A stretch of 64,000 nucleotides of DNA from Micromonospora cremea. Its GTDB lineage: Bacteria > Actinomycetota > Actinomycetes > Mycobacteriales > Micromonosporaceae. Shown piece after piece: positions 53,997-60,168 of this stretch; the stretch's first letter is position 1, and each line of letters starts with the position of its first letter. Below the pieces are notes generated by a model. The model saw nothing but the letters and a program-made list of their open reading frames with translations. It was not told the DNA's origin and searched no databases. The stretch is taken from contig NZ_FSQT01000002.1 in NCBI RefSeq assembly GCF_900143515.1, positions 3,659,501 to 3,723,500 on the forward strand, given 5' to 3'. Made by a program: the position numbers and the translations under genes.

Positions 53997-54086
53997 GAGA
54001 GCTTCTCGCGTGGTTTGCCGCCGATCGCGCCGGGGGCATTGACGGTGATCCGGATTGCCAGTAGACCTTGTGATGGAGGCCCGCTG

Positions 54087-55451
54087 ATGAGCAGAACGCC
54101 GTTCACGCTGGAAGAGTTGCGGGTCGCGGTCCAGGCCGGTGAGATCGACACCGTCGTGCTGGCCCTGGTCGACATGCAGGGCCGCTTGCAGGGCAAACGG
54201 TTCCACGCACCCTTCTTCCTCGATCAGGTTGTCGAGCATGGCAGCGAGGGGTGCAACTACCTGCTCGCCGTGGACGTGGACATGAACACCGTCGGCGGGT
54301 ACGCGATGTCGAGCTGGGAGCGCGGCTACGGCGACTTCGCGATGGTGCCGGATCTCAACACGCTGCGAAGGATGCCGTGGCAGCCGGGCTCCGCGCTGCT
54401 GCTGGCCGACCTGACCTGGCTGGACGGCTCCGGTGACGTGGTCGCCTCGCCCCGGCAGATCCTGCGCCGGCAGCTGGGGCGGCTGGCCGAGCACGGGCTG
54501 ACCGCGTACGCCGGCACCGAGCTGGAGTTCGTGCTGTTCCGCGACTCGTACGAGGACGCCTGGCGGCGCGGCTACCGCGACCTCACCCCGGCCAACCAGT
54601 ACAACGTGGACTACTCGCTGCTCGGCACCGCCCGGGTGGAGCCGCTGCTGCGCCGGATCCGCACCGAGATGGCCGGCGCCGGGCTGACCCCGGAGAGCGC
54701 CAAGGGTGAGTGCAACCTCGGCCAGCACGAGATCGCCTTCCGGTACGACGAGGCGGTGGCCTGCGCCGACCACCACGTGATCTACAAGAACGGGGTGAAG
54801 GAGATCGCCGCCCAGGAGGGCATGGCCATCACCTTCATGGCCAAGCCGAACGCGCGGGAGGGCAACTCCTGCCACATCCACTTCTCGCTGCGCGACACCA
54901 CCGGCGCCTCGGCGATGCTCGGCGACGGGCCCGCGCACCTGTCGGAGACCGGGCAGCGGGTGCTCGCCGGGCTGCTGGCCACGATGCGGGAGTTCAGCCT
55001 GCTCTTCGCCCCGAACATCAACTCCTACAAGCGCTACCAGCCGGGGTCGTTCGCCCCGACGGCGCTGCGCTGGGGGGTGGACAACCGCACCTGCGCGCTG
55101 CGGGTGGTCGGGCACGGGCAGGGCATGCGGGTGGAGAACCGCGTGCCCGGCGCCGACGTCAACCCGTACCTGGCGATCGCCGGGCTGGTCGCCGGCGCGC
55201 TGCACGGCATCCAGCGGGAGCTGGAGCTGGGGCCGGAGTGCACCGGCAACGCGTACGACGACCCGGAGGCCGAGCGGGTGCCCGGCACCCTGCGCGACGC
55301 CCTGACCCTCTGGGAGTCCTCCAGCGCCGCCGCGGACGCCTTCGGCCCCGAGGTGGTCGCCCACTACGCCAACCAGGCCCGGGTGGAGATCGCCGCCTTC
55401 GACGCCGCCGTCACCGACTGGGAGCTGACCCGTGGCTTCGAACGCCTGTGA
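54087..55451 (+). CDS. Glutamine-synthetase-like gamma-glutamyl (poly)amine/ethanolamine ligase
   Basis: A 454-residue GS-fold ligase. The N-terminal beta-grasp begins TLEELRVAVQAGEIDTVVLALVDMQGRLQGKR. The catalytic domain shows YAGTELEFVLF near residue 147 (Glu metal ligands), GECNLGQHEIAF near 207, NSCHIHFSL near 262 and PTALRWGVDNRTCALRVVG near 325. It resembles GlnA3/GlnA4-type enzymes that glutamylate polyamines or ethanolamine rather than ammonia-assimilating GlnA. Linkage to a permease, aldehyde dehydrogenase and class I amidotransferase strongly supports a PuuA-like role. The ATG at 54087 has GGAGG seven bases upstream. Confidence 0.88.
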   Translation: MSRTPFTLEELRVAVQAGEIDTVVLALVDMQGRLQGKRFHAPFFLDQVVEHGSEGCNYLLAVDVDMNTVGGYAMSSWERGYGDFAMVPDLNTLRRMPWQPGSALLLADLTWLDGSGDVVASPRQILRRQLGRLAEHGLTAYAGTELEFVLFRDSYEDAWRRGYRDLTPANQYNVDYSLLGTARVEPLLRRIRTEMAGAGLTPESAKGECNLGQHEIAFRYDEAVACADHHVIYKNGVKEIAAQEGMAITFMAKPNAREGNSCHIHFSLRDTTGASAMLGDGPAHLSETGQRVLAGLLATMREFSLLFAPNINSYKRYQPGSFAPTALRWGVDNRTCALRVVGHGQGMRVENRVPGADVNPYLAIAGLVAGALHGIQRELELGPECTGNAYDDPEAERVPGTLRDALTLWESSSAAADAFGPEVVAHYANQARVEIAAFDAAVTDWELTRGFERL

Positions 55452-55464
55452 CCCCATCCACTGC

Positions 55465-55539
55465 GTCGATCATGGACGTGTGGTGGGCGGAACGCGCGTG
55501 ATCGCGGCTTCCGTGCGGCACCACAACTCCATGATCGAC
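55465..55539. repeat. Nested inverted repeat between the ligase and aldehyde dehydrogenase genes
   Basis: GTCGATCATGGA (55465-55476) is perfectly complementary to TCCATGATCGAC (55528-55539), with inner GTGGTG/CACCAC pairing. The arms are unrelated to the terminators elsewhere in the window, so this may be another dispersed element or an intra-operon processing hairpin. Confidence 0.75.
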
Positions 55540-55559
55540 CAGGGCGGGGGGTGGGACAC

Positions 55560-56915
55560 GTGACTCTGGTGGTGGATCCGGCTTCCGGGGAGGCGTTTCG
55601 GGACGTGCCGGGGGCCTCGGTGGCGGAGGTCGACGCGGCGATCTCGCGGGCCGCGATCGCGTTCGAGGCGTGGCGGGCGGTGGCACCGGGGGATCGGGCC
55701 CGGATGCTGCGGCGGTTCGCCGCCGTGGTCGACGCGCACCTGGACGAGCTGGCCACGCTGGAGGTCCGCAACTCCGGGCACACCATCGGCAACGCCCGCT
55801 GGGAGGCCGGCAACGTCCGGGACGTGCTGGACTACTACGCGGGCGCGCCGGAGCGGCTGACCGGGCGGCAGATCCCGGTGCCCGGCGGGCTGAACGTCAC
55901 CTTCCACGAGCCGCTCGGCGTGGTCGGGGTGATCGTGCCGTGGAACTTCCCGATGCCGATCGCCGCCTGGGGGTTCGTCCCGGCCCTCGCCGCCGGCAAC
56001 ACCGTGGTGCTCAAACCCGCCGAACTGACCCCGCTCACCGCGCTGCGCCTGGCCGAGCTGGCCCGCGAGTCCGGCCTGCCCGACGACGTGTTCACGGTCG
56101 TCCCGGGCGAGGGTGCGGTGGTGGGGGAGCGGTTCGTCAGCCACCCGGCGGTCCGCAAGATCTGCTTCACCGGCTCCACGGAGGTCGGCACCCGGATCAT
56201 GGCCGGCTGCGCGGCCCAGGTGAAGCGGCTGACCCTGGAACTGGGCGGCAAGAGCGCCAACATCGTGTTCGCCGACGCCGACCTTGAACGCGCCGCCGCG
56301 ACCGCGCCCGGCGCGGTGTTCGACAACGCCGGCCAGGACTGCTGCGCCCGGTCCCGGATCCTGGTCCAGCGCCCGGTGTACGACCGTTTCCTGGAACTGC
56401 TCGAACCGGCGGTACGCGCCGTGCGGGTGGAGGATCCGGCCCGGGACACCGCCGAGATGGGCCCACTGATCTCCGCCGGCCAGCGGGACCGGGTCGCCGG
56501 CTACGTGGCCGGGTCCCGGGTCGCGTTCACCGGTTCCTGCCCCGACGGTCCCGGCTTCTGGCACGCCCCGACGGTGCTGCTGGCCGACTCGCCGGCCGAC
56601 CGGCACTGGCGGGAGGAGATCTTCGGCCCGGTGGTGTCGGTGCTCCCGTTCGACGACGAGGCCGACGCGATCCGGCTCGCCAACGACACCGAGTACGGCC
56701 TCTCCGGCTCCATCTGGACCCGGGACGTGGGCCGCGCGCTCCGGCTCGCCCGCGCCGTCGACTCGGGCAACCTCAGCGTCAACTCGCACTCCTCGGTGCG
56801 TTACTGGACCCCGTTCGGCGGCATGAAGCGCTCCGGGCTGGGCCGGGAGCTGGGTCCGGACGCGCTGCACGCCTTCACCGATGTCAAGAACCTGTTCATC
56901 GCGACAGAGGAGTGA
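55560..56915 (+). CDS. NAD(P)-dependent aldehyde dehydrogenase
   Basis: A 451-residue ALDH. PWNFPMPIAAWGFVPALAAGNTVVLKPAE near residue 125 binds NAD(P). FTGSTEVGTRI near 203, E227 in LELGGKS and C261 in DNAGQDCCARS are the nucleotide and catalytic residues. KRSGLGRELG near the C-terminus is canonical. It probably oxidises gamma-glutamyl aminoaldehyde made in this cluster. GTG 55560 (MTLVVDP) is preferred over 55551 for spacing from the GGGGGG-type site. The IS607-type remnant begins immediately after its stop, so the operon was cut here. Confidence 0.92.
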   Translation: MTLVVDPASGEAFRDVPGASVAEVDAAISRAAIAFEAWRAVAPGDRARMLRRFAAVVDAHLDELATLEVRNSGHTIGNARWEAGNVRDVLDYYAGAPERLTGRQIPVPGGLNVTFHEPLGVVGVIVPWNFPMPIAAWGFVPALAAGNTVVLKPAELTPLTALRLAELARESGLPDDVFTVVPGEGAVVGERFVSHPAVRKICFTGSTEVGTRIMAGCAAQVKRLTLELGGKSANIVFADADLERAAATAPGAVFDNAGQDCCARSRILVQRPVYDRFLELLEPAVRAVRVEDPARDTAEMGPLISAGQRDRVAGYVAGSRVAFTGSCPDGPGFWHAPTVLLADSPADRHWREEIFGPVVSVLPFDDEADAIRLANDTEYGLSGSIWTRDVGRALRLARAVDSGNLSVNSHSSVRYWTPFGGMKRSGLGRELGPDALHAFTDVKNLFIATEE

Positions 56916-57226
56916 CTCTAGGCTTGCTTGCTTATCGAAGTTGTCTATGGTTTTCAACCGTGGGCAACGTCAAAGTCGGGCGAGTGGCAACTGTGGTCAT
57001 CGCCCACAAGGACCGGCTGGCCCGGTTCGGCTATGACGACCTTGCGCACGAGGCTGAGACCGCTGGCTGCGAAATTCTCGTTGCTAACCAGGAGTCACTG
57101 TCGCCGCGAGAGGAGATGATGCAGGACCTGTTGGCGATCGTGGATACCTTCTCCGGCCGCCTTCACGGCCAGCGTCGTTACGAGAAGCAGCTGAACGCTG
57201 CAGACTTGACCGAGGTGTCGTCGTGA
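56916..57226 (+). pseudogene. IS607-type TnpA serine recombinase, N-terminally truncated
   Basis: The frame from about 56960 encodes the C-terminal half of an IS607 resolvase: VVIAHKDRLARFGYDDL, then CEILVANQESLSPREEMMQDLLAIVDTFSGRLHGQRRYEKQ. The DNA-binding helix-turn-helix and the catalytic Ser segment that should precede it are missing. The upstream sequence runs into the aldehyde dehydrogenase stop, so the element is not autonomous. Its stop overlaps the tnpB start (GTGA at 57223-57226), preserving the original gene coupling. Confidence 0.8.
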
Positions 57227-58629
57227 GGACGACCCGGATCGCCTACTCACACCGCCTCAACGCGGGGAAGTACCACTCGTTGACCGAGCAGGCGCGCCGG
57301 TTGGGTCGGGTCCGCAGTGAGGTGTGGCAGCGGTACGGCTCGGCGGGCGGTGCTGGGCTGACCGACCGGGAGGTTCGCGACCGGTGGCTTGCTGAGGGCA
57401 TCCACCACCGGTTCGGGGTGTTGGCGAACGCGTGGAAGGAAACCGTCCGTGACGCGATGGCCGACATCGCCGCGGCCCGCGAGTCGGCCAAGACGCAGGT
57501 GCGCCGGGCTATTCGGCGCCGCACCGGCGATCAGGCAGAGCAGAGGCGGCTGTTCGGGCTGCTCAAGGCTGACCGGTGGGTCGACGATCCGTACCTGTCG
57601 CGGCAGATGCGCTCACATTGGCGGCGCGGGCACAACCGCACCCATAACCAGATCGTGGTGCGTGCCGATCAGCATCACACCCGGGCTGACGAGGGTGGAC
57701 GGCTGTGGCTGGCCGTTCCCGGCCTGGTGCGGCGCCAGATGGTCCGCATCCCGTTGAACACCACCGTCGCTCCGACGGGCACGCTGCGGCTGATCCTGCG
57801 CGGCGACCGCGTGGAGATCCACTACCAAATCGACGCCGCCACCATGAAAACCTCACAGCGTCCGTGTGGCACCGCGACGCTGGGGGTGGACAAGGGTTAC
57901 ACCGAGGCGCTGACCGATTCCGATGGCAACCACCACGGCGATCGCCTCGGTCAGTTGTTGACCGCCGAGTCTGATCGGATCAAGGAACGCAACCGCCGCC
58001 GGGCGAAACTGCGTTCGATCGCCAACACCGCAGCCCGGCGCGGCGACCAGGCGAAGGCTGAGCGGATCGCCACGATCAACCTCGGCACGATCAAGCGAAA
58101 CCGGCAGGCCGCCCGCCACCGCGGGCGGGTGCGCACGGAGATCTTCACCGCCGTGCATCAGGTAGTGGACAAGGCCGCCGTCGTGGTCGCCGAAGACCTG
58201 ACCAAGACGTTCACCGGGCGCAAGCAGTTCGGCAGGAACACCAACCGGCGTCTCGCCGCGTGGACCAAGGGGGTCACCGCGCAGGCGCTGAAGGATGTGT
58301 CGGAGCGCAGAGGTTCTGCGCTCGTGCACGTCAACGCCGCCTACACCTCACAAGTCTGTCACCGCTGCGGCTGCTTTGGCCGCCGCGCCGGGGATCGGCT
58401 TCACTGCACGCTGTGCGGGGTGGTGTGGCAGGCCGACGTGAACGCCGCGATCAACGTCCTGCGACGACATGGTGACCCCGACATCACCCTGCGCACCCCG
58501 CATCGCGCGGTGAGGCAGATCGTGCAGGCACGGGCCGATCGCCACCGGAGCAGACTGCCGCTCCCGGACTCCAGCCCGGTACAGCGGGCGGAGAGCGAAT
58601 CATCCGACGTGCTCAGCAATGAGCAATAA
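57223..58629 (+). CDS. tnpB: TnpB RNA-guided endonuclease (IS607/IS200-type OrfB)
   Basis: A 468-residue TnpB. The RuvC catalytic triad is complete: D223 in LGVDKGYTEAL, E324 in VVAEDLTKTF and D405 in ADVNAAINVL. The zinc ribbon C379-x2-C382 ... C395-x2-C398 sits before the last Asp. The N-terminal WED/REC-like part covers ~1-215. TnpB proteins cut DNA guided by a right-end (omega/re) RNA overlapping their own 3' end. The GTG at 57223 overlaps the tnpA stop. The stop at 58627 overlaps the SDR ATG. The ~50-residue C-terminal tail is Arg/Ser-rich. All catalytic residues survive although tnpA is broken, so nuclease function may be retained. Confidence 0.9.
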   Translation: MRTTRIAYSHRLNAGKYHSLTEQARRLGRVRSEVWQRYGSAGGAGLTDREVRDRWLAEGIHHRFGVLANAWKETVRDAMADIAAARESAKTQVRRAIRRRTGDQAEQRRLFGLLKADRWVDDPYLSRQMRSHWRRGHNRTHNQIVVRADQHHTRADEGGRLWLAVPGLVRRQMVRIPLNTTVAPTGTLRLILRGDRVEIHYQIDAATMKTSQRPCGTATLGVDKGYTEALTDSDGNHHGDRLGQLLTAESDRIKERNRRRAKLRSIANTAARRGDQAKAERIATINLGTIKRNRQAARHRGRVRTEIFTAVHQVVDKAAVVVAEDLTKTFTGRKQFGRNTNRRLAAWTKGVTAQALKDVSERRGSALVHVNAAYTSQVCHRCGCFGRRAGDRLHCTLCGVVWQADVNAAINVLRRHGDPDITLRTPHRAVRQIVQARADRHRSRLPLPDSSPVQRAESESSDVLSNEQ

Positions 58630-58640
58630 CAAGGAAGCAG
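58450..58640 (+). ncRNA. Candidate right-end guide RNA (omega/reRNA) locus of tnpB
   Basis: This is a positional inference only. In characterised TnpB elements the guide RNA scaffold is encoded by the last ~100-200 bases of tnpB and ends at the element's right boundary, with the guide read from flanking DNA, here the SDR gene start. I can see GC-rich self-complementary stretches around 58500-58600 but have not established a fold or the exact right end. Confidence 0.25.
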
Positions 58641-59416
58641 TGACGCCTGTGCAGGGTCGGTTGCAGGACCGGGTGGCCGTGATCACCGGAGCGGGCAGCG
58701 GGATCGGGTTGGCCACCGTCCGGCGGTTCGCCGCCGAGGGGGCCCGGGTGGTCTGCGTCGACATCGACGCGACGGCCGGCGAGCGGGCCGCCGAGGAGTG
58801 CGGCGGCGAGTTCGTGGCCACCGACGTCGCCGACGAGTCGGCGGTGCGTGACCTCTTCGACGGGGTGGCCGACCGGCACGGGCGGGTCGACATCGCGTTC
58901 AACAACGCCGGCGTCTCCCCGCCGGACGACGACTCCATTCTGGACACGGGCCTGGACGCCTGGGAGCGGGTGCTGCGGGTCAACACCACGAGCGTCTACC
59001 TCTGCTGCAAGTACGCCATCCCGCACATGCGCCGCCAGGGCAGGGGCTCGATCATCAACACGGCTTCGTTCGTGGCGCTGATGGGCGCGGCGACGTCGCA
59101 GATCGCGTACACCGCGAGCAAGGGCGGGGTGCTGGCGATGACCCGTGAGTTGGGCGTGCAGTTCGCCCGCGAGGGCATCCGGGTCAACGCGCTCTGCCCC
59201 GGCCCGGTGGCCACCCCGCTGTTGCTGGAACTCTTCGCCGCCGACCCGGAGCGGGCGGCCCGCCGGCTGGTGCACGTGCCGATGGGCCGGTTCGGGCAAC
59301 CGGAGGAGATCGCCGCCGCGGTGGCGTTCCTGGCCAGCGACGACGCCTCGTTCATGACCGCCGCGCAGTTCGTGGTCGACGGCGGCATCACCGGCGCGTA
59401 CGTCACACCTCTATGA
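58619..59416 (+). CDS. SDR-family NAD(P) oxidoreductase
   Basis: A 265-residue classical SDR. VITGAGSGIGLAT near residue 21 binds the cofactor and VCVDID near 44 suggests NAD preference. FNNAGVSPPDD near 98, the Ser of TASFVALMG, and Y-T-A-S-K near 163 form the catalytic set. It ends with FVVDGGITGAYVTPL. As written, ATG 58619 overlaps the tnpB stop by 11 bases; GTG 58640 or 58649, after AAGGAAG, are alternatives. The insertion has therefore replaced the original translation start region. It belongs to the amine-utilisation operon and overlaps the amidotransferase gene by ATGA. Confidence 0.92.
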   Translation: MSNNKEAVTPVQGRLQDRVAVITGAGSGIGLATVRRFAAEGARVVCVDIDATAGERAAEECGGEFVATDVADESAVRDLFDGVADRHGRVDIAFNNAGVSPPDDDSILDTGLDAWERVLRVNTTSVYLCCKYAIPHMRRQGRGSIINTASFVALMGAATSQIAYTASKGGVLAMTRELGVQFAREGIRVNALCPGPVATPLLLELFAADPERAARRLVHVPMGRFGQPEEIAAAVAFLASDDASFMTAAQFVVDGGITGAYVTPL

Positions 59417-60168
59417 AGAGGCCGCTGATCGGGATCAGTGCGTACGTCGAGCCTGCCGACTGGGCGGTCTGGCGGGGCGTGCGGGCCGTGCTGGTGCCCG
59501 AGGCGTACGTGCGGGCGGTGACCGTCGCCGGCGGTCGGGCGGTGGTGCTGCCGCCGGACGACGAGGACGGCGACGTGCTGGCCGTCCTGGACGGGCTGCT
59601 GCTGGCCGGTGGTGCGGATGTCGGCCCGGGGCGGTACGGCCAGCCGCCCGACCCCAGGACCGAGGACCGGCCGGACCGGGACGACGGCGAGCTGACCCTG
59701 TTGGCCGCGGCGCTCGCCGCGGAGCTGCCGGTGCTGGGCGTCTGCCGGGGGATGCAGCTGCTCGCCGTCGCCTACGGCGGCACCCTGCACCAGCACCTGC
59801 CCGACGTGGTCGGTCACGAGGCGCACCGTCCGGCGCCGGGCGTCTACGGCGCGCATCCGGTGCGGTTCGCGCCGGGCAGCCTGGCCGCCACGGTGTTGGC
59901 CGGGGTGGACCGGGTCAACTCGTACCACCACCAGGGGGTTGCCGACCCCGGGCGGCTCGCCGTCAGCGGCTGGGCGGAAGACGGTGTGATCGAGGTGGTC
60001 GAGGATCCGGAGCGGCCGTTCGTGCTCGGTGTGCAGTGGCATCCGGAGAACGAACCGGATCCCCGCCCGGTCGCCGCGCTGGTCCGGGCCGCCGGCCAGC
60101 GACCGTCCAGCCCGCCCGTCACCGCGCCCGACGAGGCCGTGCGATCGGTGCGACCCCGGGCGACGTGA
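59413..60168 (+). CDS. Class I glutamine amidotransferase-like gamma-glutamyl hydrolase (PuuD-like)
   Basis: A 251-residue class I GATase-fold hydrolase. The nucleophile is C111 in LGVCRGMQLL and H210-P-E212 in VQWHPENE completes the triad. IGISAYVE at the start and YHHQGV near 171 are typical of gamma-glutamyl-GABA hydrolase PuuD. It would release glutamate from the gamma-glutamylated product of the preceding enzymes. The ATG overlaps the SDR stop (ATGA), so translation is coupled. The last ~25 residues are a polar tail. Confidence 0.9.
   Translation: MKRPLIGISAYVEPADWAVWRGVRAVLVPEAYVRAVTVAGGRAVVLPPDDEDGDVLAVLDGLLLAGGADVGPGRYGQPPDPRTEDRPDRDDGELTLLAAALAAELPVLGVCRGMQLLAVAYGGTLHQHLPDVVGHEAHRPAPGVYGAHPVRFAPGSLAATVLAGVDRVNSYHHQGVADPGRLAVSGWAEDGVIEVVEDPERPFVLGVQWHPENEPDPRPVAALVRAAGQRPSSPPVTAPDEAVRSVRPRAT

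Follow-up and report, generated by a model that had tools for sequence, protein, structure and literature searches.

The window studied here is a stretch of 64,000 nucleotides (nt) from the genome of Micromonospora cremea, which comprises two contigs and 7.76 Mb (contig NZ_FSQT01000002.1, positions 3,659,501 to 3,723,500 of the forward strand); all positions below are those of the window. Between its genes for an aldehyde dehydrogenase and a short-chain dehydrogenase/reductase (SDR) lies a mobile element with an intact tnpB, the gene of a predicted RNA-guided endonuclease, and a remnant of the transposase gene tnpA (Table 1). The element is of the IS607 type, because its TnpA is a serine recombinase. 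It is ordinary in kind but unusual in its location and in how it ends. An earlier note on this DNA had recognized the TnpB, the broken TnpA and the separation of two genes, and this much was confirmed, whereas the edges of the element and a supposed overlap of tnpB with the SDR start had to be revised; the Shine-Dalgarno (SD) sequence as insertion target had been missed. The interpretation offered at the time, an immobile but selected TnpB that acts as a self-guided nuclease and may help to express the downstream genes, is supported in part, not as a whole.

Insertion site in the window

In all 29 relatives read at this locus (L040-L068; L numbers denote loci), the aldehyde dehydrogenase and SDR genes are contiguous, and their junction, free of any insertion, consists of GAGGAG, the stop codon and, after a few nt, the SDR start codon. 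In the window, the element lies directly 3' of GAGGAG (56907-56912), and the host sequence TGACGCCTGTG picks up after the terminal GGAAGCAG of the element (58640). Both junctions share the 6 bp AGTGAC, so that the empty sites define the ends only to within 6 bases; the ends were set at 56913 and 58640, since other copies of the family fix this ambiguity, and these positions replace the span 56916-58660 first given. The ATG at 58619, which had suggested that the tnpB stop overlaps the SDR start codon, is only the start of the longest open reading frame (ORF). The relatives lack that sequence, and their start codon aligns with GTG 58649, 19 nt past the tnpB stop; by this alignment, the overlapping start codon is an artefact of ORF calling. 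AGGAG is the textbook core of SD sequences, and the target site of the element is the predicted SD sequence of the SDR gene.

The insertion at this site was seen in this genome only. The SDR-PuuD stretch was matched in all 151 genomes searched and, among the matches listed, none but the window's own begins at query base 1, as a shared right end would require. No similar DNA was found in the plasmid collection.

Table 1. Features of the element and its surroundings in the window
Feature	Position	Strand	Basis
Aldehyde dehydrogenase gene, upstream operon neighbour	55551..56915	+	PF00171, 519.5 bits; best NCBIfam match aminobutyraldehyde dehydrogenase, below cut-off
Host SD sequence GAGGAG, originally of the SDR gene; predicted target-adjacent motif	56907..56912	+	29/29 empty relatives
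Whole IS607-type element, 1728 bp	56913..58640	+	Empty sites and ends of other copies
Promoter-like pair TTGCTT-16-TATGGT in left end, candidate only	56924..56951	+	Motif comparison
tnpA remnant; serine recombinase lacking the DNA-binding part and the region of the catalytic serine	56960..57226	+	PF00239; alignment to intact TnpA
tnpB, predicted RNA-guided endonuclease, 468 aa, GTG start	57223..58629	+	Pfam, NCBIfam, weak fold matches
Predicted guide-RNA (omega/reRNA) scaffold, four helices, overlapping tnpB 3' end	58537..58640	+	Alignment, covariation, fold
AAGGA, SD-like sequence in element end	58631..58635	+	Sequence; anti-SD duplex energy
GGAAGCAG, right terminus	58633..58640	+	Same 8 letters in 96/98 copies, gathering pattern nearly fixing them
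Predicted guide, first ~20 nt of host DNA past the element	58641..58660	+	Position relative to scaffold; L042 match
SDR gene, native GTG start	58649..59416	+	Relatives; PF13561; NF004713, 477.5 bits vs cut-off 404
PuuD-like class-I glutamine amidotransferase gene (Peptidase_C26)	59413..60168	+	Pfam; NCBIfam match below cut-off

Insertion sites across the family

A pattern describing the right end has 62 matches, spread over 25 of 160 genomes of the genus, whereas the reversed pattern has 0. Named genomes, searched at the protein level, yielded 68 loci, whose hosts belong to Micromonospora, Catellatospora, Streptomyces, Glycomyces, Saccharopolyspora, Kibdelosporangium, Actinoplanes, Asanoa, Rugosimonospora, Saccharothrix, and Actinophytocola. 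Altogether 98 distinct right ends, gathered by the right-end pattern, were tabulated, 60 of them from named records; copies with altered ends (e.g. L136) were dropped. A gene start, defined as a start codon that lies within 20 nt of the right end and opens a frame of at least 60 codons rich in G and C at third codon positions (GC3), was present in 82 of these copies, in 80 of them 2-12 nt away; low-GC3 genes such as that at L200 escape this definition. Merging similar flanks reduced the 98 copies to 82 distinct sites, and 67 of these have a gene start; other GGAGs in these loci, taken as controls, have one in 817 of 3130 cases (26%; binomial for the 67 of 82 ~1e-25).

For eight other insertions, empty sites were available from uninserted genomes, and 39 of the 44 have GGAG right at the junction. 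Flank matches starting past base 14 and L204, the inserted copy itself, were excluded from this count, and two of the 44 (L220, L237) are uninserted sites in the own genome. The five misses show GGGG (L230) or have GGAG 1-2 nt off (L216, L245, L246, L247). At the left end, GGAG was found in 23 of the 28 copies with a locatable tnpA start, compared with 14 of 112 control segments. No target duplication was found beyond the bases common to element and target. The target contains GG, and the element ends suggest AG, not GG, as the crossover dinucleotide. As far as these sequences tell, insertion at the SD is the rule of the family.

Ten of the genes next to the right ends were scanned. Enolase, isoprenyl transferase, FabI, YbaB/EbfC, RuvA, and acyl-CoA synthetase scored above NCBIfam cut-offs, PriA-like, SbcC-like, and LysM-like proteins scored below them, and one had no match. 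RuvA_N gave a single match in each of the three genomes with the element before ruvA. Enolase was rejected as a single essential gene behind an insertion, because the genome in question has two enolase loci. At the sbcC-like site (L027, L196, L141, L117), host-like bases (GTCGAC or GTG) still precede the TAGTTG of the element at the left junction, which looks as if it had been joined via short homology rather than by the recombinase.

The genome of M. cremea contains a second copy of the family (L069, G000:C2:377010-378368), with a TnpB 90% identical to that of the window and a truncated tnpA; GTG and ATG codons 2-5 nt past its right end open frames of ~72 codons. Outside the window, the same genome also harbours a second TnpB family (L001-L007) with frames of 371-410 aa, the left end TTGACATCC and a right end near CCACGCCGCGA. 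These copies sit directly before (A/G)TG codons and, judged by eye, at least 5 of the 7 precede a gene. At the glnB-like site of L001, all 15 relatives read are empty; the insertion lies directly before the ATG and left the host GGAGG upstream.

Right end and translation of the downstream gene

The 8 letters GGAAGCAG are terminal in 96 of the 98 right ends, a sameness that is partly by construction, since the gathering pattern nearly fixes them. AGGA occurs within the last 10 bases in 91 copies, and GGAG is terminal in 0. In the window, the right end AAGGAAGCAG now stands before the start of the host gene. The predicted anti-SD duplex energy at the SDR start is -5.6 kcal/mol, compared with -9.1 kcal/mol in an empty relative; the mean over 82 copies is -5.9 kcal/mol, whereas random 22-mers drawn from these loci average -4.5 and a native-like model, GAGGAG plus flank, -10.3. 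A predicted replacement SD is thus present but weak. In 58 of 64 copies, the distance from the tnpB stop to the next start is between -4 and 30 nt, a spacing that would permit translational coupling. In the three copies before ruvA (L142, L145, L078), the tnpB start is located just behind a host GAGGA-type sequence, which tnpB appears to use.

The idea that the element contributes a promoter or a start codon to the downstream genes holds in an altered form: the element seems to contribute through its SD-like end, not through a start codon. A promoter may be formed by the pair in the left end, a motif of the TTGCTT-16-TATGGT type being found in the window and in 7 of 28 other left ends, compared with 0 of 84 control segments; a generic promoter scan around the element returned nothing, this pair included. 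The terminator scan around the element found minus-strand sites only and no plus-strand terminator.

Predicted guide RNA

Alignment of 53 right ends revealed 18 pairs, 8 of them with double changes. For the 20 named pairs of the predicted omega or right-end RNA (reRNA) scaffold, 95.3% of the alignment cells are paired, and double changes number 82, compared with 24.3 in shuffled alignments. The covariation score is 0.226 as against 0.065 after shuffling, and 0 of 500 shuffles reach it. Slid versions of the 20-pair scaffold all perform far worse, a control that leans in favour of the scaffold, which was derived from the same alignment and overlaps tnpB coding sequence in part. The double changes fall in helices 2, 3, and 4, which are the firm part of the scaffold; helix 1 has none. 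Folded alone, the right end of the window has a z-score of -2.41, with 5 of 200 shuffles as good or better. A conserved RNA structure is thus predicted at the right end. It has no Rfam match at the gathering threshold and none to RAGATH-18 at E up to 5, and a RAGATH-18 identity was rejected.

Because the covarying scaffold stops at GGAAGCAG, the guide would be the host DNA past the element, in agreement with the earlier proposal that it comes from the 5' region of the SDR gene. GGAG precedes the guide-matching sequence in the empty sites, the position of a putative target-adjacent motif (TAM) of the AGGAG type. In one relative (L042), GAGGAG is followed by 20 nt identical to the predicted guide, and this site would be a ready target. 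Within the genome of M. cremea, the 16 nt that open the guide lie behind GCAG at the element itself; besides this site, no match to GGAG plus these 16 nt with fewer than 3 mismatches was found, and the sole other match within 3 mismatches is flanked by GGAG and has 3. Two copies in other loci (L119, L126) have lost most of tnpB by deletion, with the guide-RNA end still beside a gene start, and are possible orphan guide RNAs.

TnpB, the tnpA remnant and persistence without the transposase

The tnpB frame of the window is intact, and its product matches PF07282 and the NCBIfam model guided_TnpB (113.7 bits, cut-off 100). As had been read from the sequence before, it carries the complete RuvC triad (D223, E324, D405) and the zinc ribbon (Cys379/382/395/398). 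Among the 74 family members with an intact tnpB frame, including that of the window, D223 and E324 are each found in 73 and D405 in all 74; the cysteines of the zinc ribbon vary more (Cys379 in 49, Cys382 in 64, Cys395 in 74, Cys398 in 73). A structure model (mean pLDDT 77.8) has a low predicted template modelling score (pTM 0.46). In a Foldseek search with this model, Cas12f entries were the best matches (E 2.7e-9) and the ISDra2 TnpB 8exa ranked 38 (E 1.6e-4), with TM-scores of ~0.3. The model is consistent with a TnpB, no more, and the fold matches are supportive only.

The TnpA is broken, as previously recognized, and lacks its DNA-binding part and active site. Its match to the resolvase domain PF00239 covers positions 59-139 of 145 only, and from GTG 56960 the remnant comprises 88 residues, compared with ~203 in intact copies; its stop overlaps the tnpB start. 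By eye, the opening codons GTGGGCAACGTC look like those with which intact tnpA genes begin, although the aligner put them elsewhere, and the remnant would on this reading represent an in-frame internal deletion of ~115 codons. The serine recombinase with an N-terminal DNA-binding domain, a trait of IS607, does occur in the family, in full length in 19 of the 98 copies. A search of the own genome with an intact TnpA returned the similar remnant of the second copy, a relative of near-full coverage but 33% identity, and three weaker matches; no cognate TnpA with an active site was found elsewhere in this genome, that relative being the best full-coverage match.

Across the family, tnpA was counted as full-length if one tblastn match spanned at least 180 residues, and tnpB as intact if its frame reached at least 430 aa. 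By this measure, tnpA is full-length in 19 of the 98 copies, partial in 22, and absent in 57; if only the 88 copies with 2100 nt or more upstream are considered, the counts become 19, 21, and 48. The other 10 copies, some of them at contig ends, have less than 2100 nt upstream and were counted as lacking a full-length tnpA. The tnpB frame is intact in 16 of the 19 copies with a full-length tnpA and in 58 of the 79 without (16/19 and 55/69 in the 88-copy subset). The ratio of nonsynonymous to synonymous substitution rates (dN/dS) of tnpB is 0.15-0.35 across 17 same-site pairs, none of which has a full-length tnpA. These data bear out, at the level of the family, the claim that tnpB outlives tnpA. 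For the tnpB of the window, dN/dS against five relatives is 0.21-0.28, a value that reflects the lineage and not this insertion.

Neighbouring genes

The element interrupts an operon (54060-60168) that resembles those for polyamine or gamma-aminobutyric acid use and encodes a glutamine-synthetase-like protein, the aldehyde dehydrogenase, the SDR, and the PuuD-like protein. Among the proteins of this operon, the SDR alone scores above NCBIfam cut-offs.

Discussion

The element is probably a TnpA-deleted member of an actinobacterial IS607 clade that targets the SD sequences of host genes and exchanges one SD for another. Insertion exactly behind GGAG leaves the host SD before the element's own genes. 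TnpB would then be made from the transcript and translation signals of the host operon and take over the host SD, and the right end of the element would return a weaker substitute to the host gene, whose translation may be helped by coupling from the nearby tnpB stop. The right end of the same transcript would be cut into a guide RNA, in which the ~20 nt that open the SDR gene region serve as the guide. TnpB and this guide would cut alleles that contain GGAG followed by the guide sequence, be it the empty site on a sister chromosome or incoming DNA, and repair of the cut empty allele would copy the element in. The chromosome that carries the element would escape cutting, since GCAG there takes the place of GGAG beside the target. 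More tentative, and in our estimate slightly short of an even chance, is the generalization that such RNA-guided elements are widespread in actinobacteria, using the ribosome-binding site both as landing site and as TAM, taking over the SD, returning an uncuttable substitute, and homing after the transposase has been lost.

Several parts of this scheme have parallels in known systems. The closest are the IS607 TnpBs with RAGATH-18 guide RNAs (ISFba1 and kin), which resemble the window element in its predicted guide RNA downstream of tnpB, its putative AG-rich TAM, and its RuvC triad, which they need; their TAM is AGGAG in 18 of 22 strains and GAGGG in the other 4, and single changes in the TAM abolish cleavage by ISFba1 (PMC11061315). 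The window element differs from them in that its scaffold has no RAGATH-18 match and in its high-GC actinobacterial hosts, whereas 97.8% of the RAGATH-18 strains are Firmicutes (PMC11061315). The main text of that article contains no occurrence of "Shine", "ribosom", "start codon", or "operon", and a link to the SD was thus not made there in such terms. IS607/IS1535 serine transposons likewise have a serine-recombinase TnpA and GG in the target, and they insert without target duplication, as the family described here appears to do; IS607 shows a preference for (G)GG only (PMC6188088). The family described here instead targets GGAG, usually at a gene start and apparently with AG as the crossover, and TnpA is not full-length in most of its copies. 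Group B IStrons are also of the IS607 type, encode TnpB, often lack a complete TnpA, and have a built-in means of sparing the host gene, but they are spliced out of RNA, whereas no intron is invoked for the window element, its end giving the SD-like sequence (PMC4227781). The gene drive described for the TnpB of IS200/605 elements resembles the proposed homing, as TnpB, once its insertion site has reprogrammed it, would attack copies that are empty, but was shown in plasmids and for a family other than that of the window element (PMC11870625). No report of SD-targeted TnpB elements was found among the titles and abstract openings listed in searches of the open-licence literature, which is no proof of novelty.

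A number of observations weigh against this scheme. Sixteen of the 98 copies have no gene start by the definition used. The replacement SD may matter little, being far weaker than the native one and at a greater distance from the start. The dN/dS of the window copy cannot separate selection before from selection after the loss of tnpA. The synonymous divergence (dS) of same-site tnpB copies is mostly close to that of the host gene beside it, and simple inheritance would account for this no less than homing would; L141 and L117 depart from it most clearly (host dS 0.09, tnpB dS 0.30), a gap that suggests a replacement or a separate insertion. Several same-site copies are closer to a relative at another site, and same-site copies do not always form one clade in the tnpB tree, in which six same-site sets need 7 changes (minimum possible 5, average of shuffles 11.4).

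The main rival to an SD exchange is survivorship. The recombinase might insert at any GGAG, copies at SDs would persist as the least damaging, and AGGA would be part of the recombination site without a translational role. We regard this as unlikely, though as the best of the alternatives. In its favour, the target motif is short, the replacement SD is weak, and the right end looks like the target, as is expected of an attachment site. Moreover, copies with a full-length tnpA are less often at gene starts (13 of 19) than the others (69 of 79). Such a difference would point to filtering after insertion and counts against an SD-directed element, although over the 98 copies loss of tnpA and position at a gene start are not significantly linked (Fisher p 0.077). 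The excess of gene starts over the 26% expected from GGAGs is, however, a lot for filtering alone. In addition, the SD has been split from ruvA, which has one match per genome in three genomes, and from priA-like and fabI-like genes, whose translation must somehow persist, and the AGGAG TAM measured in relatives makes the SD a natural target of the nuclease too (PMC11061315).

Somewhat less probable still is that the window holds a recently degraded copy, an ordinary dead IS607 insertion with a tnpB that is intact because it is young. Its restriction to this genome and the failure to find a cognate active-site TnpA elsewhere in it (best full-coverage match 33% identical) fit this explanation. 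Against it stand the family-wide retention of intact tnpB in copies without a full-length tnpA, the low dN/dS of same-site pairs, and the similar values for the window tnpB against its five relatives. Finally, a domesticated regulator, in which TnpB and its guide bind the host operon or its relatives and tune expression in the manner of TldR, is very improbable despite the guide at a gene start and the co-directional tnpB, because TldRs are nuclease-dead TnpBs with an inactivated RuvC (PMC13418256) whereas the window TnpB keeps its triad, and because, at fewer than 3 mismatches, the 16 nt that open the guide have no match flanked by GGAG in the own genome.

If the exchange of SD sequences is real, insertions of this family would do almost no harm, draw on the host operon for their expression, and carry a weapon against empty alleles, and they could persist by RNA-guided homing after the loss of the transposase. 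This would account for the survival of compact elements within operons of important genes and for the persistence of tnpB in the absence of tnpA, and the AGGAG TAM of published IS607 TnpBs would have the same explanation. The rule would be simple, with the SD as the TAM and the change from GGAG to GCAG as self-protection, and the family might become a source of TnpBs with targets at gene starts in GC-rich bacteria.

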